Assembly: GCA_934670025.1 (NCBI GenBank)
Contig: CAKUOS010000002.1
Span: 1 to 64,000 of the forward strand
From: an uncultured Oscillospiraceae bacterium
Lineage (GTDB): Bacteria; Bacillota; Clostridia; Oscillospirales; Oscillospiraceae
Direction: 5' to 3'
DNA length: 64,000 bases
The notes beneath the pieces were generated by a model that was not told where the DNA came from, ran no database searches, and was given only the letters and a program-made list of their open reading frames with translations. Made by a program: the position numbers and the translations under genes. Positions 35,860-38,187 of this stretch are shown here, piece after piece. Numbering within the stretch: the stretch's first letter is position 1; every line of letters begins with the position of its first letter.

Positions 35860-36153
35860 ATGAAAATTCAGATCGAAGCCGAACTGTCCAATTACATCGA
35901 ATCCCTGCATTATGACCGCAATTCCATTCAGGAGCTGCTGCTCATGGCGGCGAAGCAGGGCTTGAAGGACACCGACGCATACAACGCATGGATGAAGGAC
36001 TACCTCGGCAAGAGCAAGGAGTATGAGATCGCAAAAGCGACGCTGGAACGCGAGTTTATCATTCCTTCTGTCGGCAATGCAGCGGTTGACTGGGTGCTTG
36101 ATTTCTCGACCGCCACGGTGACGGTGACGCCGCGGGAGCAGACCGATGATTAG
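35860..36153 (+). CDS. Small protein preceding the radical-SAM gene
   Basis: 97 residues. Helical first part (IEAELSNYIESLHYDRNSIQELLLMAAKQG) and a short beta-like end. Its stop overlaps the start of the radical-SAM gene by eight bases, so the two are likely co-translated. It could be a structural adaptor of the fibre or a partner of the maturase. No cysteine is present, so it is not itself a CXXX substrate. Confidence 0.55.
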   Translation: MKIQIEAELSNYIESLHYDRNSIQELLLMAAKQGLKDTDAYNAWMKDYLGKSKEYEIAKATLEREFIIPSVGNAAVDWVLDFSTATVTVTPREQTDD

Positions 36154-37462
36154 GCCACAGGAAACCTTCACCGATATGCTGGCGCGGCTTTTCCCTATGC
36201 CAGGTATCCAGCTCGGCATCAACTCGCCGCACTCCAAGTGCATCACGTTTCAGGTGACGGAAGACTGCAACCTGCGCTGCAGCTACTGCTATCAGGGCTG
36301 CAAGACGCACCGGAAGATGTCGCTTGAAACCGCCAAGGCCGCCGTCGATATGCTGCTCGCCGCAGACGAGCGGACAAATCAGTACATCACGTCCACGGAG
36401 GTTGCCGGGGTGGTGCTGGATTTTATCGGCGGTGAGCCGCTGCTGGAAGTCGAGCTGATCGACCAGATCCTCGACTACTTCGTGGCGCAGACCTTCCGCC
36501 TGCATCATCCATGGGCGACGCGCTGGAAAGCGTCGATGTCCACAAACGGAACGCTGTACTTCCGCCCGGAGGTACAGCGGTTTTTGGATAAGTGGGCAAA
36601 GCACCTGTCGCTCTCCATCAGCATTGACGGAGATAAGCAGCTCCACGATTCCTGCCGCGTCTTCCCGGACGGCTCTGGCAGCTATGATCTTGCTATCGCG
36701 GCCGCGAAGGATTACATGACCAAGGGAAACGCCCTTGGCTCGAAGATGACGATTGCTCCCGGCAACGTCGATTATCTGTACCACGCAGTAATCGGTCTGC
36801 TGGACGCGGGGTATCGGGCGATCAATCTGAACTGCGTGTATGAAAAGGGCTGGACGCTCGACCATGCGGCTACGCTCTACACACAGCTCAAACGGCTTGC
36901 CGATTTCGTCCTGCTTGCGGACGAACAACCGTATCTGTCGATCTTCAGCGAAAGCATCGGCCATCCGCTTCCGGAGGACGATAATCAGAACTGGTGCGGC
37001 GGTACGGGGCTTATGCTGGCGGTCGACTGCGACGGCCTGTTCTTCCCGTGCCTGCGCTACATGGGAACCTCCCTCGGCCATGAGCAGCGGCCCTATACCA
37101 TCGGCGATCTGGAACACGGCATCAACGTTCTTCCGGAACATCGGGCGCGGGTGGCAGAAATGGCCGCAGTCACGCGGCGCAGCCAGTCCACCGACGAATG
37201 CTTTGCGTGCCCGATCGCGTCCGGCTGCTCTTGGTGCAGCGCGTACAACTACCAATGCACAGGGACTCCGGATAAGCGCGTGACGTACATCTGCCCGATG
37301 CACAAGGCCCGCGTCCTGGCGAACGCCTACTACTGGAACAAGCTGCACCGCAAGCAGGGCGACGCCGCACGTTACCGACTGGATATTCCTGACGCATGGG
37401 CGCTTGAAATCATCCCCTATGCAGAGCTGTCAATGCTCAAATCAATCTCCAAGGAGGGCTGA
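36146..37462 (+). CDS. Radical SAM/SPASM peptide maturase
   Basis: 438 residues. The radical-SAM core has CNLRCSYC with Cys41, Cys45 and Cys48 for the 4Fe-4S cluster, and GGEP at 95-98. The C-terminal SPASM region carries cysteines 284, 295, 302, 352, 355, 361, 364, 371 and 383 for auxiliary clusters. Enzymes of this type modify ribosomally made peptides, often at Cys, by thioether or other cross-links. The neighbouring gene encodes a CXXX-repeat protein, which makes it the obvious substrate. The genes sit in a phage tail operon, not in a bacteriocin cluster. Product chemistry unknown. Confidence 0.9.
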   Translation: MIRPQETFTDMLARLFPMPGIQLGINSPHSKCITFQVTEDCNLRCSYCYQGCKTHRKMSLETAKAAVDMLLAADERTNQYITSTEVAGVVLDFIGGEPLLEVELIDQILDYFVAQTFRLHHPWATRWKASMSTNGTLYFRPEVQRFLDKWAKHLSLSISIDGDKQLHDSCRVFPDGSGSYDLAIAAAKDYMTKGNALGSKMTIAPGNVDYLYHAVIGLLDAGYRAINLNCVYEKGWTLDHAATLYTQLKRLADFVLLADEQPYLSIFSESIGHPLPEDDNQNWCGGTGLMLAVDCDGLFFPCLRYMGTSLGHEQRPYTIGDLEHGINVLPEHRARVAEMAAVTRRSQSTDECFACPIASGCSWCSAYNYQCTGTPDKRVTYICPMHKARVLANAYYWNKLHRKQGDAARYRLDIPDAWALEIIPYAELSMLKSISKEG

Positions 37463-37464
37463 GT

Positions 37465-38187
37465 ATGGCATATATCGAGGCCGAACGCTTCGCCGAATTG
37501 AAAGTGCGTGTCAAGGCCGAGTGCCTGCGGCGCTGCCATACCGGATCTGTTGCGGAGTATGGCGGCGAAAAATACGAATACACGAACAGCCCCACCGAAG
37601 ATCACACCGTCGACGTGGAGCATTATGAGAAGCTGGCGCTTCCGCTGTCGAAGATCCACAGCGAGAAAGTGCCGAGCCTCGACGGCCGCAGAATTGTGTT
37701 TGACGAGGACATCACCGAGTTTGAAGCAGCGTTGACGCTCTTTGAAACACGCCCCATGACGGACAAGACGCGGGGTGACTGTGAAACGTCCTGCACGGGA
37801 GCTTGCTACACCGGCTGTTCTGGAGACTGCACAGGCGGCTGCGAAACGACGTGTTCCGGAGAATGTCAAGGTTCCTGCACCGGCTGCGGAAGCGGCTGTG
37901 CGAATACCTGCGAAGGCTCCTGCTCTGGCGGCTGTTACGGCTGCGGCGGCAACTGCACGGGCGGCTGTTCCGGTTCCTGCGACGGTAGCTGCTCCGGGTG
38001 CTCCGGTAGCTGCTCTGGCGGCTGTTCCAGCAGTTGTTCCGGTGGCTGCAAATCGTCTTGCACAGTGACCTGCGGCAACACTGGCTGCGTCGGCTCGTGC
38101 CTCGGCCTTTGTTCTGCCGGCTGCACGACCTCGTGCCAGACGTCCTGCGGCTATTGCGGCACAAACTGCACGGCTGTATCGAAGTAA
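37465..38187 (+). CDS. CXXX-repeat cysteine-rich protein, likely substrate of the radical-SAM enzyme
   Basis: 240 residues, start after AAGGAGG two bases past the maturase stop. Residues 1-105 are an ordinary charged domain with two cysteines. From Cys106 to Cys235 it is a repeat of C plus three residues, mostly Ser, Gly and Thr, with 34 cysteines. The register is broken by four CXX steps and one CX4 step. There is no transport signal or protease. Possibilities are a cross-linked stalk, a tip on the tail fibre, or a released peptide. The first half may serve as leader or as the part that docks to the virion. No similar protein of known function can be named with certainty. Confidence 0.85.
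   Translation: MAYIEAERFAELKVRVKAECLRRCHTGSVAEYGGEKYEYTNSPTEDHTVDVEHYEKLALPLSKIHSEKVPSLDGRRIVFDEDITEFEAALTLFETRPMTDKTRGDCETSCTGACYTGCSGDCTGGCETTCSGECQGSCTGCGSGCANTCEGSCSGGCYGCGGNCTGGCSGSCDGSCSGCSGSCSGGCSSSCSGGCKSSCTVTCGNTGCVGSCLGLCSAGCTTSCQTSCGYCGTNCTAVSK
37780..38169 (+). repeat. Degenerate 12-base repeat coding for CXXX
   Basis: About 33 units, mostly 12 bases, each beginning TGT or TGC. The third positions and the spacer codons vary, so the repeat is kept at protein level, not as identical DNA. Such a tract can expand or contract by slippage. Confidence 0.85.

Follow-up and report, generated by a model that had tools for sequence, protein, structure and literature searches.

A three-gene CXXX-repeat modification cassette of tailed phages, often placed beside tail genes, and its possible role in the virion

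The sequence studied here, called the window below, comprises 64,000 nt of contig CAKUOS010000002.1 (GCA_934670025.1) from an uncultured Oscillospiraceae bacterium, and carries a contractile-tail phage in which terminase, portal, protease, major head protein, sheath and tape measure were recognised. Between the baseplate and fibre genes of this phage upstream and a diversity-generating retroelement downstream lies a cassette of three genes, encoding a small helper, a radical S-adenosylmethionine (SAM) enzyme and a protein built largely of CXXX repeats. The features of the cassette are as follows.

35860..36153, + strand: helper open reading frame (ORF), 97 residues, related to TIGR04116 by iterated hidden Markov model (HMM) search; 8-base overlap with the enzyme ORF
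36146..37462, + strand: radical-SAM/SPASM maturase of the TIGR04115 family, 438 residues (475 bits; PHROG_1802)
36266..36289, + strand: CX3CX2C [4Fe-4S]/SAM motif of the enzyme (Cys41/45/48)
37465..38187, + strand: CXXX-repeat protein, presumed substrate, 240 residues, 36 Cys; AAGGAGG upstream of the start
37465..37779, + strand: folded N-terminal domain of this protein, residues 1-105 (AlphaFold2); profile in 56/82 phage CXXX proteins, PF27846 on relatives
37780..38169, + strand: CXXX array of 34 Cys (residues 106-235); without modification it has no confidently predicted fold, the predicted local distance difference test score (pLDDT) being mostly < 50
37920..37936, + strand: 17-bp direct repeat, copy 1 (partner 90 bp apart)
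38010..38026, + strand: 17-bp direct repeat, copy 2 (partner 90 bp apart)

The first-pass annotation of this DNA had placed a SPASM radical-SAM enzyme directly before a protein with 34 cysteines in a CXXX pattern. Its coordinates proved exact, the 34 cysteines being those of the array, and the helper ORF, the third member of the cassette, had been overlooked.

The enzyme exceeds the cut-off of 350 bits of NCBIfam model TIGR04115, with residues 31-396 aligned; NCBIfam describes this model as a radical SAM peptide maturase of the CXXX-repeat target family. Seven further cysteines (284, 302, 352, 355, 361, 364 and 383) follow the SPASM pattern. The second-best NCBIfam match is the PapB family NF047865, with a score (181.8 bits) below the cut-off of 340 for membership, and the SCIFF maturase model scores 102.4 bits. 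By sequence, the solved structure nearest to the enzyme is that of a radical-SAM protein, PDB entry 5wgg. The CXXX ORF begins 2 bases past the enzyme ORF. Its product has 35 successive Cys spacings, 29 of them CXXXC and 4 CXXC, a distribution far from chance, and gives no match to the NCBIfam CXXX target models at E 0.01.

The window holds, next to the enzyme, a CXXX repeat target gene (37465-38187) and a helper of the TIGR04116 type, the latter by an iterated HMM grown from the window ORF only; the second maturase TIGR04119 and the export part of the catalogued CXXX modification system, i.e. a twin-arginine translocation (Tat) signal peptide and TatA/TatC, were not found with it at 25-46 kb. 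TIGR04116 carries the NCBIfam name "CXXX repeat peptide modification system protein". The iterated HMM finds relatives in 87/102 phage-type loci and 56/59 cellular loci (defined below), and in each of these 56 cellular loci its match is the ORF also found by an HMM built from a TIGR04116 protein. The reverse direction is weak, the TIGR04116-seeded HMM reaching 1/102 phage-type loci, and the window ORF itself gives no match in a direct NCBIfam scan, even at E 10, so that the kinship between helper and TIGR04116 rests on the iterated search.

Phage and cellular forms of the system

An alignment scan of viral contigs yielded 78 loci. Adding 22 genome loci from the Bacillota side, the window and one further locus (L007) gives 102 phage-type loci, or 79 non-redundant clusters at 95% enzyme identity. 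Loci from viral collections were labelled "phage-type" by that origin, and L087-L108 by Bacillota-side identity, in both cases ahead of any check of context. Neglectibacter timonensis SN17 and Gemmiger formicilis DFI.6.10 are cultured commensals in which the cassette occurs. The cellular loci number 59, of which 56 lie in genomes labelled as Bacteroidota. The TIGR04115 cut-off is passed by 42 of the 45 enzymes of viral records. Within 3 kb, a CXXX protein is present in 68 of the 79 phage-type clusters, and a helper was found in 67; ten of the 11 clusters with no CXXX match have < 3.2 kb of sequence on one side, and in the eleventh, L072, the enzyme gene is interrupted. A chance Cys-rich reading frame was rejected on the basis of this recurrence.

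Phage and cellular loci share the TIGR04115 enzyme above cut-off, the TIGR04116-related helper, and the spacing and residues of the array: CXXXC steps outnumber CXXC steps in 82 phage proteins (2550 and 815) as in 73 cellular ones (1245 and 130), and Ser, Thr and Gly are the commonest residues between array cysteines in both. They differ in what surrounds this core. A hydrophobic N-terminal stretch occurs in 65/73 cellular versus 3/82 phage CXXX proteins. TatA and TatC genes, sought with seeds verified above NCBIfam cut-offs, are found in the fetched stretch of 35/59 and 34/59 cellular loci, respectively, versus 0/102 phage-type loci, and TIGR04119 is present in 57/59 versus 7/102, one of these seven matches (L072) being possibly a broken-off enzyme piece. 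An RR-motif is found in 47/54 cellular loci and 12/82 phage proteins, where it may be explained by an "RR" within the N-terminal domain. ORFs of the LSGGQ-type ATP-binding cassette (ABC) kind lie in the fetched flanks of 4/79 phage-type versus 6/55 cellular clusters. The cellular form is exemplified by L008, with an enzyme of 630 bits to TIGR04115, TIGR04119, TIGR04116, TatA and TatC above cut-offs, and a CXXX peptide near but below the TIGR04117 cut-off. A plain exported peptide system was rejected for the phage form, which has neither signal nor Tat genes.

Phage and cellular enzymes also part in phylogeny. In a tree of 124 rows (69 phage-type and 55 cellular, ten clusters having been left out as short or insert-bearing), the two groups are separated by one change, a value as low as which was reached in 0/500 label shuffles. 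The cellular side has a support of 90, and a branch uniting 68 of the phage rows one of 99; the viral locus L082 has a long branch and falls next to the cellular clade. The possibility, raised in the first-pass annotation, that the enzyme-target pair occurs mainly outside phages beside exporters is true of TIGR04115 overall, since 58 of its best 80 genome loci belong to the cellular group and TatC accompanies 34/59. It does not refute a phage-specific reading, because the phage members form a separate branch and most of them have an N-terminal domain that the cellular proteins lack.

This domain is predicted by AlphaFold2 in the window protein as a block of pLDDT 84-95 over residues 1-100, with helices at 6-22, 30-33, 51-68 and 80-95. 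It occupies the position of the signal peptide in cellular CXXX proteins, and its profile matches none of the 73 of these. Counting redundant loci, 75 ORFs of the fetched loci have this domain, and an array is present in every one. The domain lies C-terminal to the array in L069 and between an adhesin-like domain and the array in L065, unlike a cleaved leader. A structure search with the domain gave two viral proteins at E < 0.001, one of them named TNFR-Cys domain protein, and a fold search of PDB with the model of the CXXX protein gave nothing under E 0.001.

The array varies in length over a nearly constant N-terminal domain. Variants P0001, P0002, P0005 and P0020 have Cys totals of 18, 26, 28 or 36 and nearly identical N-terminal domains, and the largest CXXX proteins reach 126 Cys. 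The natural variant P0005, 30 residues shorter, fits a loss between the two 17-bp repeats lying 90 bp apart in the window; assembly collapse is a less likely source of the length variation. In six metagenome variants (P0009, P0010, P0012, P0014, P0024 and P0029) the array continues into another frame, mostly rich in Ala, Val and Pro, which reflects either genuine phase variation or an error of assembly.

The enzyme and target types as such are already catalogued (TIGR04114-TIGR04119, PHROGs, PF27846). Both the enzyme and the Cys-rich protein have a place in existing families: phrog_1802, labelled "radical SAM domain" only, phrog_6085, with no function, and PF27846. In the literature searched, which was open-access and does not prove absence, no description was found of the reduced phage form, its N-terminal domain or its tail setting, nor of radical-SAM stapling of a virion part.

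A further cellular form occurs at L178-L181 (class of genome G001), where an enzyme of ~710-730 residues lies beside an ORF that is TIGR04116-like by eye; its neighbours include an ABC transporter ATPase at L179 and a QhpE-like subtilisin, below cut-off, at L178. Class-level genome samples gave matches at 1e-60 in 5/391 genomes (class of G001) and 1/395 (class of G005, the query genome itself), too few for a comparison of prevalence.

Setting among tail genes

The genes that surround the cassette in the window are listed below.

32758..34134, + strand: Baseplate J-like protein (PF04865 1.2e-37; phrog_6 1.1e-61)
34127..34795, + strand: Tail_P2_I tail protein (PF09684 1.2e-22; phrog_48)
34792..35841, + strand: tail fibre/virion structural protein, upstream of the cassette (phrog_2163 2.4e-48; phrog_7037 tail fiber 3.1e-20)
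38200..38748, + strand: conserved ORF of 182 residues; HMM relatives in 10 phage-type loci
39800..41671, + strand: retroelement target tail protein (phrog_5302 tail protein 1.2e-116), with the variable repeat (VR) at its 3' end, 41520-41659
41900..42039, + strand: template repeat (TR); 16/16 differences to VR at TR adenines
42170..43267, + strand: reverse transcriptase (PF00078 5.1e-13; phrog_1423 5.1e-105)

The enzyme gene follows Baseplate_J at a distance of 2.0 kb, and the placement of the pair between fibre genes and retroelement given by the first-pass annotation is borne out on both sides. The 182-residue ORF has no family match in NCBIfam, Pfam and PHROG scans, and the ORF past it has a weak match to a PHROG of unknown function and nothing else. 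VR and TR differ at 16/140 sites, every one at a TR adenine, and the retroelement is a genuine one of the textbook diversity-generating type. It was rejected as a component of the cassette, a window-like reverse transcriptase being present in just 6/79 clusters, the window included. The first-pass annotation had also stated that no exporter, protease or immunity gene accompanies the pair. As to exporters, seed HMMs gave no match to Tat genes and no LSGGQ-type ABC ORF was found at 25-46 kb of the window; a second SPASM ORF is likewise absent from 25-46 kb.

A similar setting is frequent elsewhere. Neighbouring genes, up to two per side per cluster, were compared with PHROGs (137 upstream and 142 downstream genes; the upstream set, 137/141 references, is without the genes of L049 and L056, which are CXXX ORFs). 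Among the first 25 of 277 upstream families, the commonest named ones are tail fibre, collar fibre, baseplate and virion structural proteins (at most 13 members per family), and among the first 25 of 166 downstream families they are endolysin, amidase and holin (at most 9). Neighbours were also clustered, groups being named through the PHROGs match of each main group's central member. Under loose clustering, a tail, baseplate or fibre family lies within 8 kb in 56/79 clusters (upstream in 54, downstream in 6); this procedure chains fibre genes, placing 54 clusters in one group that splits under a low-complexity filter. Strict clustering, which applied that filter, required overlap over half the length and took the named tail genes of the window as anchors, gives 44/79 (upstream 42, downstream 4), and relatives of the ORF at 34792-35841 are then present in 25/79. 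Of the 45 viral records, 14 contain Baseplate_J; the enzyme follows it on its own strand in 13 of these, and the distance is at most 6 kb in 10. The pair recurs across phages, often in the tail-fibre and lysis region and without Tat genes; that it always lies in the fibre region, the check named in the first-pass annotation, is not supported by these counts.

A few CXXX proteins are joined to other modules. In L065 a DNRLRE domain (79 bits, cut-off 34) is followed by the N-terminal domain and then the array. The N-terminal region of the L076 protein matches a PHROG tail protein (2.6e-12), with an F5/8 type C match below the Pfam cut-off, and precedes the array. A C-terminal domain common to the L053 and L074 proteins also occurs in a 594-position phage family of unknown function. 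Arrays held in one chain with adhesin-like or tail-protein modules would fit a fibre role. In two large phages CXXX proteins also occur in rows, of five in L049 (2825-9235) and six in L056 (2967-8631), one being 968 residues long with 104 Cys.

Jumbo phages offer a parallel. Of 95 matched phage records, 12 were looked at (H1, H2, H4, H7, H10, H11, H13, H20, H36/H35, H47, H50 and H56, two SPN3US records being counted once). Phage SPN3US has two CXXX ORFs of 130 and 134 residues, with 21 and 20 Cys, between SPN3US_0168/0167, of which 0167 is a virion gene, and the radical-SAM genes 0164/0163. They span 143828-144220 and 143413-143817 of NC_027402, and the former lacks an annotation. Two reports give gp168, just upstream of gp167, as a virion protein (PMC10052503, PMC5105663). 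The same pair of ORFs lies just upstream of radical-SAM genes in 8/8 records, i.e. SPN3US and seven further phages of Salmonella, Erwinia and Cronobacter picked from the hit list. These ORFs encode ~130-157 residues, the preceding gene is annotated as a virion protein in 6/8 records, and some of the records leave the CXXX ORF without annotation or place an opposite-strand call over it. The likeness to the window lies in the CXXX ORFs beside radical-SAM genes; the enzyme of SPN3US type (125.6 bits to TIGR04115, below 350), the second radical-SAM gene and the N-terminal part differ. Since its enzyme is a distant relative, SPN3US is a parallel case and not a proven family member.

Proposed role of the CXXX-repeat protein

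The sequences compared here show the three genes, their kinship to the cellular system, recurrence among phages, a frequent place downstream of fibre or baseplate genes, and the lack of export signal, Tat genes and, for the most part, the second maturase. We lean, by a little, towards the reading that the phage cassette is a reduced CXXX modification system making a part of the virion tail, with modification and virion location both holding. Taken singly, modification of the array is likely, and location of the protein in the virion, for which gene position and fusions speak, is fairly likely. The interpretation of the first-pass annotation, a thioether-linked stalk or tip on the virion, is in this sense partly supported.

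The proposed mechanism would run as follows. The CXXX ORF, with AAGGAGG before its start, would be well translated late in infection, and while still in the cytoplasm its array would be modified by enzyme and helper. The enzyme would cross-link the array into a rigid, thioether-stapled rod, while the N-terminal domain might recruit the enzyme, anchor the protein to the tail, or both. The stapled rod would be built into the tail fibre or tip of the virion, and the product would leave the cell within the particle by lysis, not by secretion. The reach or stiffness of the rod would depend on the length of the array, which might drift via recombination between short repeats. The nearest tested model for the phage enzyme, by analogy, is PapB, the ranthipeptide maturase of NF047865. 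Both are SPASM radical-SAM enzymes on CX3X motifs, PapB joining Cys to Asp or Glu in CX3D/E with 2 Da lost per link (PMC9413430).

Several observations weigh against this reading. The Asp/Glu acceptor of PapA is absent from the array pattern, in which positions +1 to +3 are mostly Ser, Thr or Gly and +4 is Cys. Of the 82 phage CXXX proteins, 26 have no N-terminal domain, and several proteins of L049 and L056 are array-only and need not all be tail parts. No named tail family lies within 8 kb in 23 (loose clustering) to 35 (strict) of the 79 clusters, several of which are short contigs. The 16 genome-derived clusters comprise 10 with a tail family (loose; 9 strict), one with lysis genes only and five with neither. 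Two other distant phage-collection matches, L168 and L169, have no CXXX ORF, and the main texts of the SPN3US proteome papers do not name gp163, gp166, gp167 or "radical SAM". The published search of SPN3US virion spectra treated carbamidomethyl-Cys as fixed (PMC10052503), a setting under which stapled peptides would be missed. The literature searched yielded neither a mass spectrum nor a structure nor a knock-out for a CXXX protein of any phage.

It is about an even bet that tailed phages, from Clostridia prophages to jumbo phages, run a radical-SAM stapling pathway of their own for a virion part, and that its product is a cross-linked CXXX rod with a phage-only domain as anchor, sometimes adhesin-capped and of a length set by repeat recombination, forming an irreversible stiff fibre that owes nothing to disulfides. 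Virion proteins hardened by covalent links are familiar, e.g. from capsid isopeptide cross-links. If the proposal is true, it would be a new use for a chemistry known from small modified peptides, as radical-SAM stapling would then act on large proteins, with as many as 126 Cys, and no longer on small secreted peptides alone, and would offer engineers an enzyme-made rod. It would also account for unnamed Cys-rich genes, missed by annotators in several records, in well-studied jumbo phages.

Of the other explanations, the strongest is that the cassette makes a prophage-borne modified peptide that acts outside the particle, as a toxin, metal binder or matrix protein; the burst of the cell frees the product, and an exporter is therefore not needed. 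Lysis families are indeed common downstream (18/79 clusters, loose clustering), the closest catalogued relatives are signal-bearing peptides and array-only CXXX proteins occur. This explanation sits poorly with the fusion of arrays to DNRLRE or tail-protein domains, with a fused folded domain of ~105 residues that is sometimes C-terminal to the array, unlike a leader, and with the jumbo-phage position after virion and tail genes, and we consider it unlikely.

Slightly less likely again is an array that resides in the virion with its cysteines in disulfides or metal-bound after lysis, while the enzyme carries out an epimerisation or forms another C-S or C-C bond. A test of TIGR04115 chemistry was not found in the literature searched, and repeats rich in Gly, Ser and Thr could fold with disulfides; against this, the next-best NCBIfam models of the enzyme include makers of thioethers (PapB, SCIFF), and the structure closest to it, 5wgg, is also that of a radical-SAM protein. 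Improbable, finally, is a late assembly or host-takeover factor that stays in the cell as a scaffold or a redox or metal sink, which would agree with the indirect assignment of virion location and with the multiple CXXX proteins encoded by L049 and by L056, and is countered by the arrays fused to adhesin-like or tail-protein domains and by the frequent position beside fibres.

Variant enzymes and a further enzyme-target pair

Enzymes of some large phages carry intein-like inserts, as judged by eye, in the CX3CX2C region (L049, L056, L065 and L078) or in the SPASM region (L075). The former four have a weak match to the NCBIfam model of intein-containing radical-SAM proteins, which is absent among the 25 matches listed for the L075 enzyme. 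In the records L041, L045/L002, L063, L067 and L072 an enzyme gene contains one to five in-frame TAG codons, which suggests TAG-recoded phages. In L029 (15513-17849), a second, divergent radical-SAM gene (8.5e-28 to TIGR04115) lies beside a gene for a protein of 364 residues with 81 Cys, in a CC-containing pattern different from CXXX, and the two are maybe another enzyme-target pair.

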